The notes under the pieces are model-generated. The model worked only from the letters and a program-made list of their open reading frames with translations, was not told the origin of the DNA and did no database searches. Positions 9,620 through 59,385 of a stretch of DNA of 64,000 bases are shown in pieces. Positions within the stretch are counted from its first letter, which is position 1. Every line of letters begins with the position of its first letter. Source of the DNA: Bacteroidota bacterium (GTDB lineage Bacteria; Bacteroidota; Bacteroidia; Bacteroidales; SZUA-534); the NCBI GenBank assembly GCA_003250355.1, contig QKGS01000005.1, forward strand, positions 62,001 to 126,000, given 5' to 3'. The position numbers were made by a program, and so were the translations under genes.

Positions 9620-12600
9620 CTATTTTTTTATAATTAGCTTTTGAGTTGTTAATACCGTTTCAGCATTATTCTTAATTACTATTATATAATATCCATCAGG
9701 GATGTTAGAAACATCAATACTATTATCACCTGTTTGTATTGGAGAAGAAACTATCTCTACACCCTGAATATTGTAGATAGAAACAAAACAATTGTTGTCA
9801 ATTCCATCAATAAAAAGGGTTGAGCTTGCCGGATTTGGATATAAATCAATATTCATTGCTTCTGAATCATTGGCAGCAACATAGTGATCACCTACTTTTA
9901 CAAGAACCATTTTGTCAAGGTTCCATTGCCAGTTTGAACCGGTAGCTGTTATTTTAATATCATTATTACCCGATGCCAAATTAACCGGCATTGATGCTAT
10001 AATAGGGATATAAGTTTCCCAACCCGGAGTTCCTCCAATTCCGTTATTTTCGATATGTGTTTTTCCATTGTCAACGCCGCCAACACTAAATGTAATATTT
10101 CCATCATCTGTAGGACATGATATAAAGTATGTTACCTGATATGCTCCGGCTTCGGCTATATTAACACTATAAGTAGCCCAGTCGCCATTATTTACATAGT
10201 TTACTCCTAATCCGGCAACAACATTCATATTATCATTGTTTCCATCGTCATAAGTACCTCCGGTTGTAATTAAGTCTTCGGCCTCAATAGTAATGTAATT
10301 GCTTGCATTAACAATTACCACTTTACATGTATCAACCAGTATACTGCTATCTTGCGATACTATTACAATATTGGCTTCACCCGAGGTTCCTGTTATTTTC
10401 ACCATACCATTTTGATTTACAGTAGCTATATTCACATCGGTTGAACTCCATGTAACTCTTTTATTGCTTGCATTAGCCGGATATGCAGTAGCAACTAACT
10501 GTACTGAGTCGTTGGTTGCAAGTCCAATAAGTTGTTTGTCAATATCAACACGTGTAGTTGGTATTGCAATTACTGTCAGATTACAAGTGTCGGTAAACCC
10601 TTGATCGTTTGTAGTTACAATAATATGGGCAAATCCTCCATCTATCGGAGTTATTACACCATTGCTGTCAACGGTTGCAACGTCAGTATTCGACGAGCTC
10701 CATTTTACACTTTTGTCGGTTGCGTAGGCAGGAGTAACTGTTTCAGTTAAGTCGTAAGTTCCGTCGGTATCCATACTCAGTGTGGTTTTATCAAGTATAA
10801 CCCCGGTTACCAGTGTTGGTACAAATTCAGTAATAGTTAAGTAACATGTATCGGTAAGTATTCCGTTTGTTTCATCGTGAGCCTGAACAACTATTTCTGC
10901 TGTTCCATAATCTTTAGCATATACTTCACCATATTTATTAACTACAACCTTGCTTTCATCGGTCGATTTCCACGATATTATTCTATCGGCGGCAGTTACA
11001 GGCTCAACAAATGCCGAAAGATAAACCGTATCATATTGTTCAAATGTTAATGTTTTGGGTTCAACTTTAACTGCCGTAACGGCATCAGTTCCCAACCCAA
11101 ATCGTGTCAGATTTTTTGTGAAGTTGAAAACTTGTAATGCACAACTGCTTATATGGTTGCAAAGTACGCCGTTGTCATCAGTAAATACAACCTGAATCTC
11201 ATTATTTGAGCGTAATAGGTTTTGAGGAATTTCAATTTCAAGTAATCCAAAAAAATCATCTCTGTCGGTTTGATCGTCACCTCTGTAATTAATTGTACCG
11301 GCTAAAGTGCTGTCGTTAAATATTATCTGCGGATTTCTTGATAGTACTTTGTCTCTACCAATACCTATTCTAAGTACTGCCTCGCCATAATTTGCTGTTT
11401 CTACATTATTAATGTTGAATACTATTGGGGTATTTGCCGTAATTTGTTGCTTTATTTTTGAAGCGTAATACTTTGTTTCATAGCAAGTATCTACTATAGC
11501 TATGTCAGTATTGAATACATATTTAATAATAGCTGTTGCTTCAGGTTTTAGAGTAATTGAAGGGTTTGTTGCAGTAGAGAAAGCATTTGTATCAAGGGCT
11601 ACCGTATTTGTTGAGGTATTCAAATATAAAACATTTGCAGTTGCCGATGTTATGGTACTTGCACCCAATCCGGCTAACGAAATATTTATATCTGTATCGG
11701 CAGTGTTCAGGCTGTTAAGAATTATATATGCAGTATCGCCATCTACATAAGCATCAACATTAATATTTATATCATCCGATTTTGTATCTATTCGTACACC
11801 ATTTACATCGGCCCATAATTGGTAGAATTTAATATATTCTGACCATACCCATTCGCCTGTCCATGTACCTATGCCATTGCCGGCGGTTCTCCACGCTTTA
11901 TATCCGGCTTCGTCTGCCGGTCTCATCAAACTCCATGGATATACCAATCCGCTTTTTACCTGTCCAAAGCCCCATTCTGCTTTTATTGGAGTAAAAGGGA
12001 GTGCTTTTTCAATTCGGTTGGGTCGCTCTAAAAATTGCAACAGCATATTGTTGAATGCCTTTATACAAAGCCAGTCTCTGTATGAACTCCAGTTTTGACT
12101 GTACCAGTCGTGCAGCTGTGAGCCATATTCTGAAATAAGAAAGCCTTTTTCCTTGCCTACATTTGCCGAATAGCTTTCTATCATATCAAGTGTTGCTTCT
12201 ATGTTTGCCCCTTTGCGGTATCTTTCCTGACCTCCGCTTATACCCGGAAAGTCATACAGGTGAAGTGAGTAAAAGTCTGTAACATCTCCACATAAATCAA
12301 TGTATGCTTTCCAGCGATTTTCCCAATATTGAAAATTTGATTTTTCTAATTCAGGGAAAGCCTGAACGAATCCTCCAACTTTTATATTTTGATTAAGCTC
12401 TTTTACTTTTGCTGCAACATCATAGTGATATTGAAATATCTCTTCCAGTGTTTCAGAACCATTGTCAACAAGTGGGAATAGCGGCTCATTCATTATTTCA
12501 ATATAACCCGGATGCGGTAGTCCGTTTTTACCTCCTGTCCCATGAAAATTCTCGTAAAACGAAACCATTCTCTCGCCCAATTCAGTTCCACTGCTTACAA

Positions 12601-13006
12601 GGTCGTAAGCAGTGTGCTGAAAAGCATATATCAGATTTTGATTATTTTCAAACCTGTGGGCTAGTGTATTATTAGCATAGGTTGTCGATTTCCACCATGC
12701 ACCATGACCTTCTAATGCCTCTGCCGTATAACTTGTGCCCCAATAATTCAAATTTCCTGTTTCACGACTTAAATATGAATTAAGTTCATGAATAAGGTAT
12801 TCCATTTTAGCTGAATCATTCTTCCAGTCGGTTTCGTAATTAGCCGAGTGAATAGTTATAAACTTCTCACGGTTAAAAACCGACTCGCCTCCCACTGTGT
12901 GCCTTATGTCAAAGTTTACTTCAACATTCACTTGCGAAAAAGCTTGCCCACATATTGCTGCTGCAAATAGTATGGCAAATGTTTTCTTTAATAATCTCAT
13001 GTTCAC
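9620..13006 (-). CDS. Secreted GH86-like agarase/porphyranase with Big_2, CBM6 and T9SS domains
   Basis: Large secreted polysaccharide hydrolase. Order: signal peptide (1-25), TIM-barrel catalytic domain (about 26-400), two beta-sandwich regions (about 405-640), three bacterial Ig-like Big_2 domains (about 643-727, 730-815, 818-903), a CBM6-like domain starting at YITIEAEDL (about 907-1040), and a T9SS type A sorting domain from LYPNPAS to KLIIKK. Candidate catalytic acids are Glu174 in IEIMNEP and Glu293 in LISEYG, with YSLHLYDFP between them. This pattern and the domain set are most like GH86 beta-agarases and beta-porphyranases; other clan GH-A families remain possible. No SusC/SusD or sulfatase genes are near, so it is not in a recognisable polysaccharide utilisation locus. 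T9SS should deliver it to the surface or medium. Confidence 0.72.
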   Translation of the reverse strand: MNMRLLKKTFAILFAAAICGQAFSQVNVEVNFDIRHTVGGESVFNREKFITIHSANYETDWKNDSAKMEYLIHELNSYLSRETGNLNYWGTSYTAEALEGHGAWWKSTTYANNTLAHRFENNQNLIYAFQHTAYDLVSSGTELGERMVSFYENFHGTGGKNGLPHPGYIEIMNEPLFPLVDNGSETLEEIFQYHYDVAAKVKELNQNIKVGGFVQAFPELEKSNFQYWENRWKAYIDLCGDVTDFYSLHLYDFPGISGGQERYRKGANIEATLDMIESYSANVGKEKGFLISEYGSQLHDWYSQNWSSYRDWLCIKAFNNMLLQFLERPNRIEKALPFTPIKAEWGFGQVKSGLVYPWSLMRPADEAGYKAWRTAGNGIGTWTGEWVWSEYIKFYQLWADVNGVRIDTKSDDININVDAYVDGDTAYIILNSLNTADTDINISLAGLGASTITSATANVLYLNTSTNTVALDTNAFSTATNPSITLKPEATAIIKYVFNTDIAIVDTCYETKYYASKIKQQITANTPIVFNINNVETANYGEAVLRIGIGRDKVLSRNPQIIFNDSTLAGTINYRGDDQTDRDDFFGLLEIEIPQNLLRSNNEIQVVFTDDNGVLCNHISSCALQVFNFTKNLTRFGLGTDAVTAVKVEPKTLTFEQYDTVYLSAFVEPVTAADRIISWKSTDESKVVVNKYGEVYAKDYGTAEIVVQAHDETNGILTDTCYLTITEFVPTLVTGVILDKTTLSMDTDGTYDLTETVTPAYATDKSVKWSSSNTDVATVDSNGVITPIDGGFAHIIVTTNDQGFTDTCNLTVIAIPTTRVDIDKQLIGLATNDSVQLVATAYPANASNKRVTWSSTDVNIATVNQNGMVKITGTSGEANIVIVSQDSSILVDTCKVVIVNASNYITIEAEDLITTGGTYDDGNNDNMNVVAGLGVNYVNNGDWATYSVNIAEAGAYQVTYFISCPTDDGNITFSVGGVDNGKTHIENNGIGGTPGWETYIPIIASMPVNLASGNNDIKITATGSNWQWNLDKMVLVKVGDHYVAANDSEAMNIDLYPNPASSTLFIDGIDNNCFVSIYNIQGVEIVSSPIQTGDNSIDVSNIPDGYYIIVIKNNAETVLTTQKLIIKK

Positions 13007-42793: not shown

Positions 42794-44263
42794 CTATTCA
42801 TTAATTGCTGTTTGTTCAGAATTTTCTTCTTTTGGGTTACGGTAATAAATGTCGATAGCTACCAACATAGCAGTAAAACCCCAAAATGGTACGGCAACTT
42901 TATCAATATCGAGAAAGTTGTTGAATAAACCATGAAAATAGTATGTAATAAGCCCTACAATAGCGGCGTAACCCAGCATACGCATTTCACTGTCTTTGCT
43001 TAGTTTTATAGCACAAATGCCATAATATAATGTAAAACCTATAACCATTAGTAGCATTAATAAACCGGGCCATCCTTGTTCCGACAATGCGCTTAAATAC
43101 TCACTATGGGCATTGCCTACGTCGCCGTGGCGTGTGCTTATAATAGTAAGGTCGGTGCTATACTGAAACGGGGCATAATACTTAGTATAATTACCGGGTC
43201 CAAAACCAAACAAAGGTTCGTGTAAAAACATACGTATTGCACAGCTCCAACGATTTAGTCGCTCAAGGTTCGAAGCATCGGTTGATACATTGGCGGCTGA
43301 AACTACGTGTTCGGAAAAGTTGTCGGACGAGTCCTGGTCGTTGCTCATTAACGAATACATGACATTATCATTGCTTAGGTGATATGCGATAAGAGCAATA
43401 ATACCCACAGCCGATAATATGTATACAAAATGTATCCGCAATTTAAGAATAGCCCATACACCTGCTGCCAGTATAAGACTTAACCATGCTGCACGCGAAT
43501 ATGAATATACAAGTGCCAGAAATAAATAAGCCGATATAAACAAAAATATCCAACGTTGAATTTTTGAATATCCCTTATAAAAAGCAAGCCCTAAAGCTGC
43601 AGGAATAAACATGGCCAACACAGCACCATACGAAGTATGGTCTTTAAAGAACGGGTTTGCCGACCAATGTGCTATCTTTTCATCAACTCCACCTTCTGTT
43701 ATTATCCGTACCATAGCATACGTAGCAACTAAGCATAAGCCGTAAATATAGTTTCGCATATACTTGCGGTTTATATTGCGCTTTATAAACATCATGCCCA
43801 TAATAATGTAAAACACTACTATAAACCACACCCTGTTTATAAATAGCTTAACCGATACTAGTATATCGTAGCTTTGAACAGTAGATATAAACATCCACAT
43901 AAGGTATGCCCATATAATTAAAGATACCGGGTGAAGGAGAAATTTTTTGTCGAGATACTGCCCATGAAAAAATTTTAGTATAAAAAGGATAAGTATTCCA
44001 ACTATAAGCAATTCCGAGGGTAAGAACATATCAATGGGTAACTTAACCGACACCACCTCGCTCAATTGGAACGATACCGGTACCAGAAATATAAGGGCAA
44101 GCATTAATTTTTCGAAATGAAACACAACTGCCCATATTACCGGCAATACAAATGGCAAACCCCAAAGGTAATACTCCTCATTTTTTATAAAATATGTTGC
44201 TGCAAATGCATACAATGCTGCAATTGCCCAAAGAACATATTTGTTTTTTAAAAGCTTTATCAA
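42794..44263 (-). CDS. O-antigen ligase/polymerase-like membrane protein
   Basis: 489-residue inner-membrane protein of the Wzy_C/WaaL superfamily, with about 11-12 hydrophobic segments. Family features: SYSRAAWLSLILA in the middle, then a large periplasmic loop holding LNRWSCAIRMFLHEPLFGFGPGNY and the conserved histidine in NAHSEYLSALSEQGWPG. It could ligate glycan to lipid A or polymerise repeat units; the two cannot be told apart by sequence. It lies 12 bp downstream of the Wzz-like gene and probably shares its transcript. Confidence 0.88.
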   Translation of the reverse strand: MIKLLKNKYVLWAIAALYAFAATYFIKNEEYYLWGLPFVLPVIWAVVFHFEKLMLALIFLVPVSFQLSEVVSVKLPIDMFLPSELLIVGILILFILKFFHGQYLDKKFLLHPVSLIIWAYLMWMFISTVQSYDILVSVKLFINRVWFIVVFYIIMGMMFIKRNINRKYMRNYIYGLCLVATYAMVRIITEGGVDEKIAHWSANPFFKDHTSYGAVLAMFIPAALGLAFYKGYSKIQRWIFLFISAYLFLALVYSYSRAAWLSLILAAGVWAILKLRIHFVYILSAVGIIALIAYHLSNDNVMYSLMSNDQDSSDNFSEHVVSAANVSTDASNLERLNRWSCAIRMFLHEPLFGFGPGNYTKYYAPFQYSTDLTIISTRHGDVGNAHSEYLSALSEQGWPGLLMLLMVIGFTLYYGICAIKLSKDSEMRMLGYAAIVGLITYYFHGLFNNFLDIDKVAVPFWGFTAMLVAIDIYYRNPKEENSEQTAINE

Positions 44264-44275
44264 AATAGTAAAGGT

Positions 44276-45298
44276 TTACTCTTCTTTTTTTATAGGAAAA
44301 TATGTTTTTAGCGACTCGTTTATGCCAAGAATAATTACAAGCAATAAAAATGTAATAATACCTGTAGTAATAGCGATAGAAGTACGCTTAGGAGCGGTTT
44401 TCTTATAGGTAGGCTGAGCTTTGCTTACTACAAATACCCTGTCAAGGGTTTCTATCATATCAACCTTAGCCTCTATGTATTTTTCTTCCAGTTTTCCAAG
44501 GCGACCGTAATATACCCTCAAAACATCGCGCATTTCAAGGAATGCTCCGCCATACTCACTAAGGATATCAAGTTTCTGCTGAAGTATTTGTTCTGCTCTT
44601 CGGTTATTTTCAACCAAAGCCAAACCTAAAGCTTCGGAATAGCGTTCGGTTTGTAATTCGTAGTCTTGTATTCCTAAAGCTCTGAGTGTACTCAATGAAT
44701 CTTCGGCAGTTGCAATCTGGTTTTTCAACAGTAGGTATTCAGCCTCAACAAGCTTAAATGCATCTTCGGCTTTTTTCTTGAACATACGGGTTACCATCAT
44801 ATTGGTATATGAAGCTATTTCATTAGTCATTTCGGCAGCCAGTTCGGGGTCGGTATCACTAACTTCTATAATTATTGATACATATTTTGTAGCTCTAACA
44901 AAAAAGCGTTTACTTACCTTTTTTCGCATTGTCCATCGGTGTGTTTTATCGGTAAGTGAGTCAACTTTGTATCGTTCGTATAAGTTATACTTGTCAATCA
45001 GATGGTCTTTTAATTCGTCCGATGCTAATATTTGCAGCATTTGGTCTACTTCATTTTCCTTACCTAAACGTAATAAATCGCGTTTGCTATCGTAAGCAAA
45101 TAAATCGTGCGAAGGGGTACCCTCTGCCACCGGGAATATTATAACCTCCGATGTGTATTTGTTAGGTATAAAAAGGGTAATAATTCCTGATATTACCATT
45201 GCTATTAATGCACCTATTACAAGTAACTTACGTTTGTTCCATAAGAACACAAATATGCTTGTAGAGTTAAGTTCGAATTGTTGATTGCTTCCTGACAT
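44276..45298 (-). CDS. Wzz-family polysaccharide chain-length/export protein
   Basis: 340-residue inner-membrane protein of the polysaccharide co-polymerase class. TM1 is at about 25-48 (LLVIGALIAMVISGIITLF), preceded by cytoplasmic residues, and TM2 near 305-328 (IAITTGIITFLLLVIILG). The periplasmic part is largely coiled coil with the opening segment PNKYTSEVIIFP. There is no C-terminal tyrosine kinase domain and no Gly-rich BY-kinase motif. It pairs with the ligase-like gene downstream; no glycosyltransferase genes are in view. Confidence 0.85.
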   Translation of the reverse strand: MSGSNQQFELNSTSIFVFLWNKRKLLVIGALIAMVISGIITLFIPNKYTSEVIIFPVAEGTPSHDLFAYDSKRDLLRLGKENEVDQMLQILASDELKDHLIDKYNLYERYKVDSLTDKTHRWTMRKKVSKRFFVRATKYVSIIIEVSDTDPELAAEMTNEIASYTNMMVTRMFKKKAEDAFKLVEAEYLLLKNQIATAEDSLSTLRALGIQDYELQTERYSEALGLALVENNRRAEQILQQKLDILSEYGGAFLEMRDVLRVYYGRLGKLEEKYIEAKVDMIETLDRVFVVSKAQPTYKKTAPKRTSIAITTGIITFLLLVIILGINESLKTYFPIKKEE

Positions 45299-45359
45299 AA
45301 TATATTTAAATTTTAAACCGCTAAAATAGAAAAAGAATCAGATTTTAAAAGCATATACA

Positions 45360-45367
45360 TATATTTG
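45360..45367 (+). promoter_or_regulatory. Candidate -7 promoter box
   Basis: TATATTTG matches TAnnTTTG, 17 nt before the LPP20-like start codon. No -33 element seen. Confidence 0.4.
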
Positions 45368-45383
45368 TTTTAACTAAACAAAT

Positions 45384-46388
45384 ATGATGAAAACTAAACT
45401 AACAGCAACCTGTTTTTTGCTAAGTATTACACTATTGACAAATGCTCAGCTTACCAAAGACAAATTCCTTGATATAGTTGACCAAGAGAGCCCTGCTAAT
45501 ATGTATGGAGTCAGAGAAAATCATTCATCGCAGTATTTGCATAAAAGTGAAAATAATTTGCCACAGTGGTTTTTTAACCCTCCGCAAATGGATTCAAAAA
45601 TTTATGCAATAGGAATATCTGACCCCGCAATGGATTCGGCCAATGCAATTAATTTAGCTATTTACAGAGGTATAGTTTTGGCAAATGTGTTAAATCGTTC
45701 TGTTACAAAGCTTTTATGTGAGTTTTATTCCGATGATGTTGCCAACACCATTAGCGTTTCATACGAGAATTTTTCACGTATCAGTTCCGAATTTTCGCTG
45801 AATAAAACCGATTATACTATTGTAAACAGCTATACTACAAGTTACGACGAGGTAATAGTACTGCTCGAATTTGACAGTCCAATTGCAGTTAATGACAGCT
45901 TAAAGAAAAAAGTACTGATTGAAACATACCGCAACGAAACCGAAACAAGTATTTACGGAACGTACGAGTCGGTTTATGAGTTGCTGGTTAAAGAGAATTA
46001 CCCTTTGCGGGATACTCATTCATTGTATCAAACTACTGAACTCGCCAATAGTTTCGATGTGGTTTCGAAATACGACACACTGAATTATAATATCCCTATA
46101 TTTTCATTGAGTTATTCCAATTTTAGTACCGTCGATTCTGTATCAACCATATTTATGCCAAATGGATTATGGAAAGAGTACTTAAAAGCTTTTGCAAATG
46201 AAATAGTAAATAAAGCAAAGCAAAAGCCCGAAAATATTAGCAACCTTTCGGAAAAGAATAACACTAACTCGTACCAAAAACTCACCAAAGGTATTTCTAA
46301 AAATATAATGAGCTTCAGGCTTGATAACATTTCAAGTTCTAATTCAAATGTAATTATCTATTTAACGGAGGTTCAGGTAGATAAATGA
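45384..46388 (+). CDS. LPP20-like exported protein
   Basis: 334-residue secreted protein of unknown role. A signal peptide (1-22, MMKTKLTATCFLLSITLLTNA; Met2 is an alternative start) is followed by a stretch with the LPP20-like pattern PQWFFNPPQMDSKIYAIGIS and a helix of NAINLAIYRGIVLANVL type, in which multiple small helices alternate with strands. A second similar unit may begin near LYQTTELANSF. The C-terminal part ends in a strand-rich region. It is divergent from the Wzz-like gene, so it may belong to the same envelope neighbourhood. Confidence 0.7.
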   Translation: MMKTKLTATCFLLSITLLTNAQLTKDKFLDIVDQESPANMYGVRENHSSQYLHKSENNLPQWFFNPPQMDSKIYAIGISDPAMDSANAINLAIYRGIVLANVLNRSVTKLLCEFYSDDVANTISVSYENFSRISSEFSLNKTDYTIVNSYTTSYDEVIVLLEFDSPIAVNDSLKKKVLIETYRNETETSIYGTYESVYELLVKENYPLRDTHSLYQTTELANSFDVVSKYDTLNYNIPIFSLSYSNFSTVDSVSTIFMPNGLWKEYLKAFANEIVNKAKQKPENISNLSEKNNTNSYQKLTKGISKNIMSFRLDNISSSNSNVIIYLTEVQVDK

Positions 46389-46445
46389 AACACATAAAGT
46401 TATATAACAATTTATTAATTGAGTTTATAAATAATGTCTAATGTG

Positions 46446-47807
46446 TTAATTATAATCAACAATAAATTTCTCAGTTATTTGCTCATTATTGATTTTAAGT
46501 TGTATAAAATATACACCTTTCATTAAATCACTAATATTTATTATGTCAGAGTTTACATTTCCTTCTTTAAATATAAATCCATTATATCCCATTATTTTAT
46601 AATTAATATTATGGCTTGAAATTTCTTTAATTTTAAGGTATGTTTTTGCAGGATTTGGATACAATTTAATAGTATTCACATACTCATTACTTATTGAAGC
46701 AATGTTTGAGGTGTTAAACCATATACTATTTGCAGCATCGAAATTTGCAACCACAATATCCAGTTTATCATCACCATTTAATTCTGAGGTTGTTAAATAC
46801 ATACTTGCTTCTGTTCCGAACTGAGCATTTGATTCTGTGAAGTTTCCATTGCCATCATTAATCCACACAATATTTTTTACTGCACTATAGTATCCGTTTG
46901 CCACAATGGCATCTAAATCGCCATCATTGTCAATATCGGCTAAATCAACACCTGAACTTTTTGAATTGCCTAATAGTTGTCCACTATCGGTAAATGTACC
47001 ATCTCCATTGTTCATCCACACCCTGTTTTCATTGTTGGTTGCACCAAAAAAATTAATGTGAGTTATAAAAATATCGAGGTATCCATTTCCATCAAGATCG
47101 CCTAATTTAAGCCCCATACTTCGGTTTGTTCCTATAGTTTGACCTTTTGTAAAAACCCCGTTATTTTCGTTTATCCAAACCATATTATATTCATTTCCGT
47201 CATTGGAACTTATAACAACATCAATATCACCATCGTTGTCAATATCACCTGTATCCATTCCGGTATTCCATCCGTTGCCTAAATCCTGACCACTATCGGT
47301 GAAATTTCCATATCCATCGTTTAGCCATAGTTTGTGTCCACCATCAGTTTCTGTATTACCTTTTACGTGATTGCAAACAAACACATCAATATCACCATCG
47401 TTATCAAAGTCGGCAAATCCGGCATCGTACGATACACTGTGACCAAGTAATTGTCCGGTATTTCGGAATGTACCGTTTTTATTATTAAGCCATACCTCAT
47501 TTGGTTCGCCGTTGGTATAGTTTCTTCCCAGGTTAAAAATATCAAGATAACCATCAGAATTAAGGTCATAAAATTTGCCGTACAATGGCAATGAGTCTGT
47601 ATTGCTTTTTGAAAATACGCCTTTACCGTTATTAATCCAAAGGCCCTCATTGTCTAATAAATCAATATCACCATCGTTATCAATATCGCCGCATGAAACG
47701 TATGGTGTAGTTACATTTGCAAAATTGTGAGGGCTTTTCTCAAAAGTTATTTGTCCTACCAGAGTAGCACTTATGATACAGGTAATAATAGTTATTAATA
47801 TTTTCAT
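46446..47807 (-). CDS. FG-GAP/VCBS-repeat T9SS protein (copy B)
   Basis: 453-residue secreted beta-propeller-like protein. A signal peptide (1-18) leads into about seven repeats with the calcium-binding DxDxDGxxD core (for example DIDNDGDIDLL, DFDNDGDIDVF, DIDNDGDLDAI), each paired with a WLNDGNGNFT segment. A T9SS type A sorting domain follows from KLYPNPAKTYLKI to EKFIVDYN. No enzyme motif. It lies 11 bp downstream of a paralogue of similar layout, so the pair are probably co-transcribed tandem duplicates. At the DNA level the repeats share near-identical blocks around 46911, 47221, 47387 and 47668. Confidence 0.85.
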   Translation of the reverse strand: MKILITIITCIISATLVGQITFEKSPHNFANVTTPYVSCGDIDNDGDIDLLDNEGLWINNGKGVFSKSNTDSLPLYGKFYDLNSDGYLDIFNLGRNYTNGEPNEVWLNNKNGTFRNTGQLLGHSVSYDAGFADFDNDGDIDVFVCNHVKGNTETDGGHKLWLNDGYGNFTDSGQDLGNGWNTGMDTGDIDNDGDIDVVISSNDGNEYNMVWINENNGVFTKGQTIGTNRSMGLKLGDLDGNGYLDIFITHINFFGATNNENRVWMNNGDGTFTDSGQLLGNSKSSGVDLADIDNDGDLDAIVANGYYSAVKNIVWINDGNGNFTESNAQFGTEASMYLTTSELNGDDKLDIVVANFDAANSIWFNTSNIASISNEYVNTIKLYPNPAKTYLKIKEISSHNINYKIMGYNGFIFKEGNVNSDIINISDLMKGVYFIQLKINNEQITEKFIVDYN

Positions 47808-47818
47808 GCATTTAAATT

Positions 47819-49201
47819 TTATTGCTCAATTACTATTTTCTGAACTGATTCTTTTCCATTGAATAAGATGCGGGCAATATAAATTCCCGGTTTTTGTGCC
47901 GAAAGGTCAATACTGTTTAAACCCGATATATAAGAATTGCAAAAGGTTAGTTCTTTTCCTGATAAATCATATATAGTAGCTGATATGTTTGCGTTTTTAC
48001 CCGAAATAGCATTTATGTATATTATACCATTTGTAGGGTTGGGATATATTATAAAATCTTTATTATCAAGTGAATCAGTTATGGAAGTAATGTTTCCCGT
48101 GTAAATTTTATTGTTTATAATGGCATCAGGAATACTATCGTTATTCAGGTCTGCAATTATAGCATTTCCTGACGGATAAATATTTTCGCTAACCTGAAAT
48201 GTTGCAATATTACCACCTTGTTCATTTCCCTGATTAATAAATAATGCTCCCGGTTTATTAAAATATCCGAAAAACAGATCCATGTCGTTATCATTGTCTA
48301 CATCAAACACCTCAATTGAGAAGGTTATATTTGAATCGCCCAATATTTGCCCTGATTTAGAGAATTGTCCCGAACCATTATTCAGCCAAAGTTCATCGGG
48401 CTGATTTCTTTTTCCGACAATTACATCGGGATAATTATCGTTATTCAAATCGCCGATTTTTAAATATAAATCATCACTGCTATCCCAGCTTGTTTTACCG
48501 GAATTTGTAAAAATACCTTTTCCGTTGTTTAACCAAATGCTGTCTTCAAAAATCACATCTGTGTCATTATCAAGGTCTATGTCGCTTAAATAAGCATCTG
48601 TCATACCAGAGCCCAAAGTTTGACTACTTAATGTAAATGTACCTGTTGAATCGTTTAACCACAATTGGTGAGGGAAATAATCGTAGGGAGGGGTGTCGTC
48701 TGCTCCATGATAATTAAGAACAAGAGCATCAACAGTACCGTTTCCGTCAAAATCGGCAAGGAGTACATCGCGGCTTGGTTTGCTGTCGAATGTTTGGTTT
48801 GTTTTTGTGAAATTCCCATTTCCATCATTTAACCATACTTCATTTGGTGTTCCGGAATTGGGTAGAAGGTACGAGGCATCGTTTCTTAGAAAAATATCCT
48901 TAAAGCCATCGTTATTTAAATCGGCAAATGCTACACTGTGCATTATTCCATTAGTACCAATAGTTTGTTTTGCAATGAAATTACCTGTACTGTCGTTCAA
49001 CCATATTTTTCCGGGCGATGCGTTTGTCATAGCATTAGTTGATGCATACATATCAATAAAACCATCGTTGTTAATGTCGGCTAATGATATATTGTAAACA
49101 TTCTGATCTATTGTTTTTCCAACGTCAGTAAGTGATAATTGAGCATATACGATATTAGAGAAAACTATTATAGCACTAAAGAAAAAAATATGTTTTTTCA
49201 T
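47819..49201 (-). CDS. FG-GAP/VCBS-repeat T9SS protein (copy A)
   Basis: 460-residue secreted protein with the same layout as its downstream neighbour: signal peptide (1-20), about seven FG-GAP-like blades with DINNDGFIDMY, DLNNDGFKDIF, DFDGNGTVDAL, DLNNDNYPDVI and DVDNDNDMDLF calcium-binding cores, and a T9SS type A domain from IYPNPTNGIIYINAI to SVQKIVIEQ. It is the first of the pair and lies 166 bp downstream of the HTCS-like regulator on the same strand. Role unknown; surface binding or adhesion is plausible. Confidence 0.85.
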   Translation of the reverse strand: MKKHIFFFSAIIVFSNIVYAQLSLTDVGKTIDQNVYNISLADINNDGFIDMYASTNAMTNASPGKIWLNDSTGNFIAKQTIGTNGIMHSVAFADLNNDGFKDIFLRNDASYLLPNSGTPNEVWLNDGNGNFTKTNQTFDSKPSRDVLLADFDGNGTVDALVLNYHGADDTPPYDYFPHQLWLNDSTGTFTLSSQTLGSGMTDAYLSDIDLDNDTDVIFEDSIWLNNGKGIFTNSGKTSWDSSDDLYLKIGDLNNDNYPDVIVGKRNQPDELWLNNGSGQFSKSGQILGDSNITFSIEVFDVDNDNDMDLFFGYFNKPGALFINQGNEQGGNIATFQVSENIYPSGNAIIADLNNDSIPDAIINNKIYTGNITSITDSLDNKDFIIYPNPTNGIIYINAISGKNANISATIYDLSGKELTFCNSYISGLNSIDLSAQKPGIYIARILFNGKESVQKIVIEQ

Positions 49202-49367
49202 AATTATTGGTTTTTTAAATTAATTGTTCAAATAAAGAAACTAATTATTTACAGAATATATGGTTAAAATGACAATTGGTTGAGGGGAAATGGCACTGTT
49301 TGATTATCAATGATATAGTGAGTTGTTGAAACTGATATGAATGCAGAAATTGTAATGTCAGAATAAA

Positions 49368-50981
49368 CTAATTGAATTTTGAAGGAAGTTCTCCGTGATA
49401 TTTTTTGAAAGTATTTGAAAAACTAACAACATCTTCGTAACCAACTTCCGAAGCAACTTCATATATTTTTAAGTTTTGCTTTTTCAATAGCAATGCTGCA
49501 AATTCCATTTTATATGATTTTACAAAATCGCCCGGTGTTTTATTTGTCAATGCTTTTATTTTACGATAAAAAGTACGTTGTGTTAAGTTAAGTTCATCCG
49601 ATAATTTAATTGCTGTAAATGCAGGATTTTGTATGTTTTTGTTAATTATTTCAATACAATTATTTATAAACTCCTGATCGCTGTTCTTATATATTGTTTT
49701 TTCTGTATCAATATTAAAACTGAATTTATTGCGTAGTTTTTCTTTAAGAATAAGTAAGTTTTGAACTTTTAGTTCGAGTATATCAGAATTAAAGGGTTTT
49801 GAAATATAATCATCAGCACCTGTATTATAACCATCAATAATAGCTTTGTTGTTATTTTTGGCTGATAGCAATATAACGGGAATATGATTTGTAATACGGT
49901 TGTTTTTCAATAGCGTACATAACTCGAAGCCATCCATTTCAGGCATCATAACATCGCTGATTATTAAATCGGGAATTTCTGATTCGGCAATTTGAATAGC
50001 TTCATTACCATTTTTTGCAATAAGAATATTGTAATTGTTTATAAATATTGAATGCATATAATTAATAAGTTCCTCATTGTCATCAACTAATAATAATGTA
50101 TGTTCTTTATCATTAGTCGTATTATTTATATAATCAATATTTTTAACGGCATTATTGGATTTTATTTGCAGCGAACAAGGTTTTTCATTTACTATTTTTG
50201 CATAGCCTATATTAAAATTAAGAGAGAATACGGAACCTTGGTGATGTTTGCTTTCTAAAGATAGAGATCCATTCAGAAGTTCTGCCATTTCTTTTACATA
50301 AGCCAGTCCTATTCCTGAACCTTCACGATAATCGTAATACTCTGTTAAGCGGGAGTAACGGTTAAATATTTCGTTTTGGGCTTCATCTGGTATCCCGATA
50401 CCGGTATCTTTTACTTCAATCTTCATGATTTTGTCAGTAATTACCAGTGTTATTATTATATCGCCATTATCAACATTATATTTGAAAGCATTTGAAATAA
50501 GGTTTGAAAGCATTATTTCGAACTTTTGAAAATCGAAAGAAATATAAGCTGAACTGTAATTTGAATTATAGTATAGGTTGCAATTATACTTATTGCAATA
50601 GTGTTCAAAAGAGTTTATTAGGTCGTTAACATATTTTACTACATCTAAGTTTTGTATGTTAATTTGCAACTCATTGTCATCGAGTTTGCGAAGATCGAGT
50701 ATTTGATTAATCAGGTTTTTAAGTTTATTAGTATTACTAAGCATTAACTCATAAACATTTTTTGTTTCTGAATTTTCACTTTGCTTTTTAATTAACGTTT
50801 CTAATGGCGATTGTATTAAGGTAAGAGGTGTTCTGAATTCATGTGAAATACCGGTAAAAAACGATAATTTGGCTTTATCCGATAAATTTTGATTTACAGT
50901 ATCGGATTGGATATAATTTAAACCGGCAACCACCTGAAAATTTGAAAAAATAATAAATAAAATAATTGAAAAATATCGCAT
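49368..50981 (-). CDS. Truncated HTCS: histidine kinase, receiver and AraC output without sensor
   Basis: 537-residue hybrid two-component protein, starting at the ATG at 50981. Domains: short hydrophobic N-terminus (MRYFSIILFIIFSNF, residues 1-20), HisKA with His47 in GISHEFRTPL, HATPase_c with DTGIGIP (192-198) and GSGIGLAYV, a receiver domain with Asp343 in ISDVMMPEMDG, and an AraC-type DNA-binding domain (about 435-537). Normal HTCS proteins have a periplasmic two-component propeller and Y_Y_Y region of about 750 residues followed by a second membrane helix; both are missing here. It lies upstream of the two FG-GAP T9SS genes on the same strand and may control them. Confidence 0.87.
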   Translation of the reverse strand: MRYFSIILFIIFSNFQVVAGLNYIQSDTVNQNLSDKAKLSFFTGISHEFRTPLTLIQSPLETLIKKQSENSETKNVYELMLSNTNKLKNLINQILDLRKLDDNELQINIQNLDVVKYVNDLINSFEHYCNKYNCNLYYNSNYSSAYISFDFQKFEIMLSNLISNAFKYNVDNGDIIITLVITDKIMKIEVKDTGIGIPDEAQNEIFNRYSRLTEYYDYREGSGIGLAYVKEMAELLNGSLSLESKHHQGSVFSLNFNIGYAKIVNEKPCSLQIKSNNAVKNIDYINNTTNDKEHTLLLVDDNEELINYMHSIFINNYNILIAKNGNEAIQIAESEIPDLIISDVMMPEMDGFELCTLLKNNRITNHIPVILLSAKNNNKAIIDGYNTGADDYISKPFNSDILELKVQNLLILKEKLRNKFSFNIDTEKTIYKNSDQEFINNCIEIINKNIQNPAFTAIKLSDELNLTQRTFYRKIKALTNKTPGDFVKSYKMEFAALLLKKQNLKIYEVASEVGYEDVVSFSNTFKKYHGELPSKFN

Positions 50982-51104
50982 TTGAATTATGATTTTATAT
51001 CGATAATAATACAAAAAATGGTGTAGAGAATTTATTCGAAATATACTTTATCAAAATGGCAAAACAATTATTATATATTTACACAAGCATTAAAAATCAA
51101 TATT

Positions 51105-51707
51105 ATGGCAGGATTCAACATTGTAGAAATATTTTCGGCGTTTATAGTTTTGTTTGCAGTTATCGACATTATAGGAGGCATACCTTTAATACTCGATTTG
51201 AAAAATAAGTCGGGGGGTATAAATGCTTTTCAGGCCACATCGGTTTCGTTTATAATACTTATAACCTTCCTGTTTGTGGGCGAAGCACTGCTGGGTTTAT
51301 TTGGCGTTGACATATCATCGTTTGCAGTAGCCGGCGCATTTGTATTACTTGCCCTTGCCTTTGAAATGATATTTGACCGCGAAATATTCAAATACAAACT
51401 AAAAGGAGCTGCAACAATAGTTCCAATAGCTTTCCCGCTCATAGCCGGTGCAGGCTCGTTTACAACCATACTGGCTTTAAGAGCCGAATATCACACTATT
51501 AACATAATTATAGCACTATTTCTTAATATAGTAATAGTTTACTTTGTTTTACATTCAATAAAGCATATCGAAAAAATATTGAGCGAAGTGGTAATTTATG
51601 TTTTAAAAAAATTCTTTGGTATAATTCTGCTTGCCATAGCAGTTAAATTATTCGTAGCTAATATATCGGTACTATTCCAGAATGTAGGTACCCGATTAAT
51701 TCCATAG
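51105..51707 (+). CDS. MarC-family membrane protein
   Basis: 200-residue inner-membrane protein with six hydrophobic segments. Conserved family parts are FAVIDIIGGIPLIL near the N-terminus, and AFPLIAGAGSFTTILAL in the middle. Members are annotated as NAAT transporters, but the function is not settled; a link to antibiotic resistance is not supported. It overlaps or abuts the M28 peptidase start: the last base of its TAG is the first of a GTG in the next frame. Confidence 0.9.
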   Translation: MAGFNIVEIFSAFIVLFAVIDIIGGIPLILDLKNKSGGINAFQATSVSFIILITFLFVGEALLGLFGVDISSFAVAGAFVLLALAFEMIFDREIFKYKLKGAATIVPIAFPLIAGAGSFTTILALRAEYHTINIIIALFLNIVIVYFVLHSIKHIEKILSEVVIYVLKKFFGIILLAIAVKLFVANISVLFQNVGTRLIP

Positions 51708-57087: not shown

Positions 57088-59385
57088 ATGATAACATATT
57101 TAAGAACTTTGTTTTTTATAGTTATACCCGTTATAACAACATATGCACAGATACCAACCAATACCTGGCGCGACCATTTACCATATCACAATGCACACAA
57201 AGTTGTAGTTGCCGGAAATAAAATATATTGTGCAACAGAATCGGCACTGTTTTATTTGAATAAAACCGACAACAGCCTCAACAAACTAAGCCGAATAAAT
57301 GGATTGTCGGATCTTGGTGTAGGAAGCATTGCATTCGACGAAAAAAGTAAAACCCTTATTATTGGTTACGATAATGGAAACATTGACCTAATTAACAATG
57401 ATATAATATACAACCTTCCGGATTTAAAAAACAAAAACCTTCTTACCGACAAAGGGATTCGCAATATAAATATTTACACTGACTATGCTTACCTTTCGTG
57501 CGGTTTTGGCGTAGTTGTTATTAATATTGCCAAACGAGAAGTTTCTGATACATGGCTCATAGGCGACAAAGGCTCTTATTTGGGTGTAAACTTTATAGGA
57601 ATAGTTGGCGATTCTATATATGCTTTAACCGATAATGGTATACTTATAAGCAACGCTAATAGTGCTTTTCATAACTACTACGGAAGTTGGATTCTCGACA
57701 CTACATTACAGAATTATAATGGGAAATTCTATTCAGGAACTATACTCAATGGTGAATTATTTGTAATAAACAACTCAGCAAATTTATACAAACTAACCAA
57801 TGACTATAAATGGCAAAAGCTTTTCGATGCATGGAATGTTAATTCGCTGTCATCATCAGCCGATAAACTTTACCTAAATACAAACAATTTAGTGTCTATA
57901 CTTAACTCATCGGGTTCGCTAATAGAAACCATTGATATAAAAAATGCCACATATACTACAACCGATGCTAACGGCAATATATATACAGCAAGCTCAACCG
58001 ATGGATTGGTTTTTTATGATAATGCAAAATACACAGCACATTACCCTAACGGCCCTATTAGCAACCGCACATTTCGAATTGCCAACAACGGAACCCAAAT
58101 AGTTGCCGTATTTGGTGGATACAACGAAGGTACGGGAGTAAACTCATGGGCGGGCATAGAATTTTATTCACTCAACGACGATATGCAGTTATGGAAAAAC
58201 TACACCTCAACCGAATACGACACCCTAAAATACGGGTCTGACGCTTCTATTGTCGGGGCAACCGGATACGAAGGCAATTACTACATAGGCACATGGGGAA
58301 CAGGAATTATCGAAGTAAAGAACGACAAAGTAATAAAACGGATATACGAGGAAACTACCAATAATGTTTTTACAACCAATAAAACTACATATTGCGGAGT
58401 AAGCGGAATGGATTTTGATAAAAACGGCAACCTATGGGTGGTTCAGCGTAACCTCGAAGCACCATTTTTTGTAAAAACACCCGATGGCAAATGGTACAAC
58501 TACCGATACGATAATATACTGTCAAAAACACTTACCGGTCCTATTTTAGTTAGTGCCAATAACGATATATGGGCAATTCCAATTTACGGTGGTCTTATAG
58601 GGGTAATTAATGCCGGTAGCAACCCCGCTACAAAAAGCGACGACAATTGGTTAGAGTTTGCATTCTACGACGAAGAAGGCAACATTATAAGCACTGAAGT
58701 AAAATGTATAGCCGAAGATAAAGAAGGTGCTATATGGATAGGTAGTAATAACGGTATTGGTGTTTACGATAATCCGTCTGAGATATTGCAAAATAAAAAT
58801 GAAAACAAAAAGCCAAGATCCAGAGTTCCGGTGCAGGAAGTTGACGGATATTTGCACAAACTACTCGAAGGTGAGGTAGTAAAGTCAATAGTAGTTGACG
58901 GTGCCAACCGCAAATGGATAGGTACCGCAGGTGGCGGCTTGTTCTTGCTCTCGCCCGATGGTACAGAGCAAATACTTAACCTTAACAAAAGCAACTCGCT
59001 ATTGTTTTCAAACAATATATACTCTATGGCAATGAACCCCCGCAACGGTGAGTTATTTATAGGAACCGATGCCGGGTTACAATCGTATATGACTTCGGCT
59101 TCGGAGGCTAACAAAACATTTACCAATGTATATGCATTCCCTAACCCTGTACAGCCCGGATATTCAGGTTTAATTACTGTTCGCGGCTTAATGTTTGATA
59201 CATCGGTAAAAATAACCGACATTTCGGGAAACCTTGTATACGAAGGCATTAGCAACGGAGGCGACTTTGTATGGAATGGTAAAGATATGGCCGGAAACGA
59301 TATTATGTCGGGCCTTTATGTGGTTATGTGTGCCAATAACGATGGTAGCGAATACGAAGCTACAAAAATTTTAATTGTAAAATAA
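57088..59385 (+). CDS. porZ: Type IX secretion system component PorZ
   Basis: 765-residue secreted beta-propeller protein that closely matches PorZ, which in Porphyromonas gingivalis binds anionic LPS and helps the sortase PorU process cargo at the cell surface. A signal peptide (1-20) is followed by NTWRDHLPYHNAHKV, the start of the first propeller, in which many blades of the GNLWV or EGAIWIGSNNG type occur (about 30-650). A T9SS C-terminal domain closes the protein (FPNPVQPGYSG to ATKILIVK). P. gingivalis PorU and PorV partners are not in this window. In operon with rdgB and recO. Confidence 0.85.
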   Translation: MITYLRTLFFIVIPVITTYAQIPTNTWRDHLPYHNAHKVVVAGNKIYCATESALFYLNKTDNSLNKLSRINGLSDLGVGSIAFDEKSKTLIIGYDNGNIDLINNDIIYNLPDLKNKNLLTDKGIRNINIYTDYAYLSCGFGVVVINIAKREVSDTWLIGDKGSYLGVNFIGIVGDSIYALTDNGILISNANSAFHNYYGSWILDTTLQNYNGKFYSGTILNGELFVINNSANLYKLTNDYKWQKLFDAWNVNSLSSSADKLYLNTNNLVSILNSSGSLIETIDIKNATYTTTDANGNIYTASSTDGLVFYDNAKYTAHYPNGPISNRTFRIANNGTQIVAVFGGYNEGTGVNSWAGIEFYSLNDDMQLWKNYTSTEYDTLKYGSDASIVGATGYEGNYYIGTWGTGIIEVKNDKVIKRIYEETTNNVFTTNKTTYCGVSGMDFDKNGNLWVVQRNLEAPFFVKTPDGKWYNYRYDNILSKTLTGPILVSANNDIWAIPIYGGLIGVINAGSNPATKSDDNWLEFAFYDEEGNIISTEVKCIAEDKEGAIWIGSNNGIGVYDNPSEILQNKNENKKPRSRVPVQEVDGYLHKLLEGEVVKSIVVDGANRKWIGTAGGGLFLLSPDGTEQILNLNKSNSLLFSNNIYSMAMNPRNGELFIGTDAGLQSYMTSASEANKTFTNVYAFPNPVQPGYSGLITVRGLMFDTSVKITDISGNLVYEGISNGGDFVWNGKDMAGNDIMSGLYVVMCANNDGSEYEATKILIVK

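Follow-up and report, generated by a model that had tools for sequence, protein, structure and literature searches.

A sensor-less derivative of a TPR-type hybrid regulator in a Bacteroidales genome and the possible loss of its sensor by in-frame deletion

In Bacteroides, the major glycan regulators include the proteins of hybrid two-component systems (HTCS). The window analyzed here, a stretch of 64,000 nucleotides from a Bacteroidota bacterium of the order Bacteroidales, encodes a hybrid regulator that has the kinase, receiver and DNA-binding parts of such a protein and no sensor in front of them, and the question raised by this locus is which sensor was lost, by what route, and whether the remaining protein can still work. 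A sensor-less form would show what a tethered kinase, receiver and DNA-binding core does without input, and a gene that is merely broken would offer a clean case of regulator decay with a surviving signal peptide. We have found that the gene is a sensor-less derivative of a TPR-type hybrid regulator. The explanation that we favor, at close to even confidence, is that the TPR array went together with the membrane helix in an in-frame deletion, which was probably recent and probably inactivated the regulator.

Domains and genomic neighborhood of the regulator

The reading frame is open from the ATG at 50981, and 22 more codons are open upstream of it, with a TTG at 51014. All four Pfam matches of the product (Table 1) lie above the curated cut-offs and follow one another on a single chain in the HTCS order of HisKA, HATPase_c, receiver and AraC-type domain. 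No Pfam match was found N-terminal to residue 38, where only 37 residues are present, and of the 25 NCBIfam families listed for the protein none reached its cut-off. The original prediction of a regulator without a sensor is borne out by these Pfam results, as the 537 aa hold the four domains and nothing else. Besides the two phospho-acceptors, the residues N160, N164, D192, G194, G196, G223, G225, D301 and K395 are kept. The predicted structure is confident for the core (mean pLDDT 82.3) and low for the first 30 residues (48-62 by block), so that it does not help with the topology of the protein.

Table 1. Coordinates in the window of the regulator, its parts and the genes downstream of it
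Feature	Residues	Position	Strand	Basis
Sensor-less hybrid regulator, 537 aa (HisKA + HATPase_c + receiver + AraC-type HTH)		49368..50981	(-)	ORF, Pfam
Hydrophobic N-terminal segment, signal-peptide-like	4-19	50925..50972	(-)	Logistic comparison with homologue segments
GTG codon 17, possible start of a cytoplasmic 521-aa form		50931..50933	(-)	Codon list
HisKA, phospho-acceptor His47	38-102	50676..50870	(-)	Pfam, residue check
HATPase_c	154-256	50214..50522	(-)	Pfam
Receiver domain (Response_reg), phospho-acceptor Asp343	297-405	49767..50093	(-)	Pfam, residue check
AraC-type helix-turn-helix (HTH_18)	460-536	49374..49604	(-)	Pfam
Two FG-GAP proteins with T9SS sorting domains, ~11 bp apart, downstream of the regulator		46446..49201	(-)	Pfam

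Only 123 bp separate the ATG of the regulator from the start of the divergent marC gene (51105), which leaves no room for a sensor upstream. A partner gene carrying a separate sensor, raised with the original prediction, was looked for among the 29 scanned window proteins, and no sensor was found in the 28 other than the regulator. The only Reg_prop match among the scanned proteins belongs to a PorZ-like protein at 57088-59385 (+), a T9SS component that lies on the other strand, 6 kb away, and was rejected as a partner. A split sensor partner elsewhere in the same genome was also rejected: a search with the TPR sensor (512 aa) of a relative from genome G193, described below, gave 11 matches, in frames of 422-935 aa, that reach no more than 20% identity and include a paralogue of the regulator on contig C89.

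The two FG-GAP genes are possible targets of the regulator, by position only. The Bacteroidota promoter pattern TTG-N19-TANNTTTG fits with one mismatch at 51067..51038 (-); the pattern gave 62 matches against 47.4 expected from shuffles, so that this fit is uninformative. Neither HTCS nor FG-GAP genes were found in the stretches of 10-13.5 kb that contain the marC relatives of G001, G002, G003 and G006, and the putative deletion event is therefore not visible at the locus. In G003 and G006 (L216 and L217, compared with window positions 42794-51707) the wzy/wzz genes lie on the opposite side of marC, and the neighborhood is rearranged. Elsewhere in the window, the product of 9620-13006 (-) combines beta-porphyranase domains with Big_2 repeats and a T9SS sorting domain.

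An error of assembly or binning, in which a TPR-coding stretch was skipped, would also produce a regulator of this shape, and the 3.70-Mb genome is indeed a draft in 106 contigs. We consider such an artefact quite improbable, as the gene lies in the middle of a 163-kb contig, so that no contig end is involved, and as the join is in frame to a plausible signal peptide, while an accidental join would be in frame one third of the time.

Ancestry of the core and the lost sensor

No close orthologue was found in the 19 other genomes of the family, where identity reaches 36-38% at best, in proteins of Reg_prop size; a class-level search of 395 genomes at E 1e-103 returned the window's own gene only, and the best match in a plasmid search with the regulator was 36.8%. 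Among 393 genomes of the order, the source genome included and three candidates scored per genome, the closest relatives are those of G189, G193 and G363 (41-43% identity over the whole kinase-receiver-AraC core, E 1e-120 to 1e-128), which have open frames of 1029-1080 aa and show TPR family matches, and no propeller, in their N-terminal halves before the kinase. The paralogue on contig C89 has a TPR match too. Within the families of G193 (100 genomes), G363 (11) and G189 (17), only those three genomes have a TPR-type relative; the G193 family holds three further relatives of 1451-1518 aa (E ~1e-109), among which L161 was confirmed as Reg_prop type. One list of stretches in the analysis comprises the best 80 of 591. 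For two of the TPR proteins (L149, L154) there is a match, below the cut-off, to the model NF053520 for the family of FimS, a TPR sensor kinase whose TPRs are periplasmic (PMC5706477). In all three genomes the TPR-type regulator is followed by an ORF of 609-610 aa (L148:11027-12856, L149:11148-12977, L150:10565-12397), with matches to SBBP repeats and DUF3471 in the L148 copy.

A quick tree of 125 cores, taken from matches that start before query residue 60 and reach past 520, with a core of at least 440 aa and duplicates removed, groups the window core with those of G189, G193 and G363 (SH-aLRT 99), with the C89 paralogue next (93). The careful tree, built from 51 cores that were hand-picked to keep the clade and the spread, with three further long relatives added, places the window core with the TPR-type proteins at 100/99 and joins the C89 paralogue at 85/86. 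Because the core groups with TPR-type proteins, the sensor lost by the regulator was most likely a TPR array; this array and the one membrane helix expected of the TPR-sensor branch are both absent. The original prediction had proposed instead that a 14-bladed propeller with a Y_Y_Y domain was lost. Most HTCS do carry a Reg_prop/Y_Y_Y sensor, and 4 of the 6 proteins of the source genome that match the whole core are Reg_prop-sized (1339-1429 aa), but the top scores of Reg_prop-sized relatives are 350-367 bits, below the 403-427 of the TPR-type proteins, and TPR sensors are present both in the nearest relatives and in the own-genome paralogue that is nearest in the tree, so that the proposal is not supported and we regard a propeller as very improbable.

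N-terminus, short relatives and state of the gene

The pre-kinase membrane helix of HTCS is missing as well, since the only hydrophobic segment before HisKA is signal-peptide-like and is separated from HisKA by ~20 residues. The original prediction had spoken of a lost second membrane helix; the helix is absent, but the wording does not suit relatives that have a single pre-kinase membrane helix. One Arg precedes the segment, and no Lys or Arg occurs in the 12 residues after it, where the homologues' pre-kinase membrane segments have a median of four. A classifier using hydropathy, flanking charge and polar content, based on 76 signal-peptide (N-terminal) and 77 pre-kinase membrane segments of homologues above hydropathy thresholds, had 94% cross-validated accuracy and gave the window segment a P(TM-like) of 0.003, a value that comes from comparison with homologues and not from a dedicated topology predictor. 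We take V17-V18-A19 followed by G20 to be a possible cleavage site, by the usual cleavage rule. A likeness of SDTVN in the window protein to ADTLN in the G189 protein, seen in an alignment of three, was too weak to count. Because the N-terminus resembles the signal peptides of the homologues and not their membrane helix, the protein as annotated, read from the ATG, should be exported, and the earlier view that export would be unworkable is supported, since the protein uses ATP and binds DNA.

The explanation that we favor starts from an ancestor that would have been a TPR-sensor hybrid regulator with a signal peptide, a periplasmic TPR array, one membrane helix, HisKA, HATPase_c, receiver and AraC domain. 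An in-frame deletion would have cut out array and helix alike, so that the signal peptide, with a few residues of the mature protein, would now meet the kinase core ~10-20 residues before His47. The product from the ATG would be sent through the Sec pathway, away from ATP and DNA, and for this reason the gene is most likely a regulator inactivated so recently that decay has not reached its core. An in-frame deletion joining the signal peptide to the kinase core, as originally predicted, fits both the N-terminus comparison and the phylogeny. The genus is represented by the source genome only in our comparisons, which include no pre-deletion sister, so that we infer the deletion itself rather than see it; we likewise infer deletion rather than gene fusion, its recency and the inactivity of the product.

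In-frame deletion as a route of sensor loss is documented, by sequence comparison, in the same family. An allele of G016 (L207:2186-4075 (-), contig C14) lacks 2196 bp (732 codons) in frame relative to G010 (L218, contig C43), with ~82% DNA identity in both flanks and 88% identity in the aligned kinase part; nearly the whole sensor is gone, and the N-terminal hydrophobic segment and the membrane helix are kept. As to whether relatives share the short form of the window regulator, a search with a profile from four sequences of the TPR clade found no short sister among the matches listed in the 393 order genomes (three candidates scored per genome) or in the 20 family genomes. Ten short open frames were fetched from the list. 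L204, L208 and L211 are cut short by a contig end. Of the others, L205 and L206 retain one membrane helix each, L207 has a membrane helix along with a signal-peptide-like segment, L209 begins within a sensor-like stretch and still has a membrane helix, L210 has several membrane segments, and L212 and L213, of 750 aa each, have ~200 residues before the kinase and no membrane segment that we could find. A signal peptide fused directly to HisKA was seen in none of the 7 complete short frames. The N-termini of L212:2686-4935 (-) and L213 look receiver-like by eye; Pfam gave L212 no second receiver. At L157:3941-8176 (-) (G001, contig C380) a Reg_prop HTCS is split by an in-frame stop, with 33 bp between the sensor and kinase ORFs, which is either a nonsense change or an assembly error. 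A Saprospiraceae MAG has a sensor-less HTCS core (L062:5134-6816 (+)) as a tandem copy beside a full-length sister (L062:496-4689), and the two copies pair at 100 in the quick tree.

The core itself shows little sign of decay. The regulator keeps 58 of 62 near-invariant core positions (0.935), the four changes being conservative, and so falls inside the span of 0.905-0.984 set by the 31 other rows. Its branch of 0.97 in the careful tree, compared with summed sister paths of 0.80-0.89, is not clearly faster. Single substitutions create a stop in 5.2% of cases, which amounts to ~0.84 stops expected per 1% neutral divergence. The conserved core and open frame therefore mean either that the deletion was recent or that the core is under selection, and core conservation and branch length are equally compatible with a functional protein and with a recent loss. 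It had been argued that intact catalytic residues speak for function; His47 and Asp343 are intact, but they would be so after a recent deletion too, which takes force from the argument. Among the 26 window genes whose GC content was measured, this gene comes last (28.4%), and one window gene (o40064) is below its GC3 of 23.2%; the C89 paralogue is nearly as AT-rich (GC 30.2%), so that AT content is no proof of decay.

The main alternative is a working sensor-less regulator that stays in the cytoplasm, through a start at GTG17 or failed export, as a soluble 521-aa protein dimerising via HisKA, which we regard as possible, if somewhat unlikely. Such a protein would act constitutively, or cytoplasmic cues or gene dosage would set its activity, and it would perhaps control the adjacent FG-GAP genes. 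All checked catalytic residues are kept, the frame is intact despite the share of changes that would close it, and the branch is not clearly accelerated, all of which would suit a working protein, as would L212 and L213, HTCS-type proteins of the order in which no membrane helix was detected, but with the residues that they have before the kinase these two are not sensor-less. The GTG is the sole ATG, GTG or TTG in codons 2-45, and GTG start codons are uncommon in Bacteroidota; the lack of a conserved short sister among the listed order matches and in the family genomes also weighs against a cytoplasmic regulator. The specific version in which the TPR sensor and helix were deleted and an internal GTG restart made the protein a one-component or constitutive switch is a tentative and rather unlikely reading.

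Comparison with known hybrid regulators

The window chain resembles the Bacteroides HTCS of Reg_prop/Y_Y_Y type, such as BT4663 and BT0366, in its HisKA, HATPase_c, receiver and AraC-type domains, and differs from them in having neither a periplasmic sensor nor a pre-kinase membrane helix and in a core that belongs to the TPR-sensor branch. For the motif of contact between receiver and DNA-binding domain, which may be mostly kept, the protein has NHIP (365-368) where HTCS have S/CHIP, and candidates for the D and K of the S/CHIP-DK contacts, D435 and K474, are present as mapped by eye. In PMC11253607, the unphosphorylated receiver of HTCS is described as restraining the DNA-binding domain via S/CHIP-DK contacts, and some HTCS that deviate from S/CHIP-DK as able to bind DNA without phosphate. 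The TPR-sensor regulators (G189, G193, G363 and C89), three of which are the closest in core sequence, are 918-1050 aa long with an N-terminal hydrophobic segment, TPRs and one membrane helix, whereas the window regulator has neither TPRs nor helix.

A search of the literature, judged by titles and abstract openings, gave no description of a sensor-less HTCS, and swapping or loss of HTCS sensors is little described in the papers that it turned up. All HTCS identified in a genome study (PMC3878776) have an N-terminal periplasmic sensor, with BT1754, the fructose HTCS, exceptional in sensor type; there the sensor is exchanged for another periplasmic type, which shows HTCS cores working with other sensors, while in the window regulator the sensor is absent. 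In a chimeric HTCS, another sensor has been shown to drive the cytoplasmic part (PMC3404733). The G016 deletion allele resembles the window gene as an HTCS that is without nearly its whole sensor through an in-frame deletion, and differs from it in having Reg_prop-sized siblings and in keeping the membrane helix, and hence the topology.
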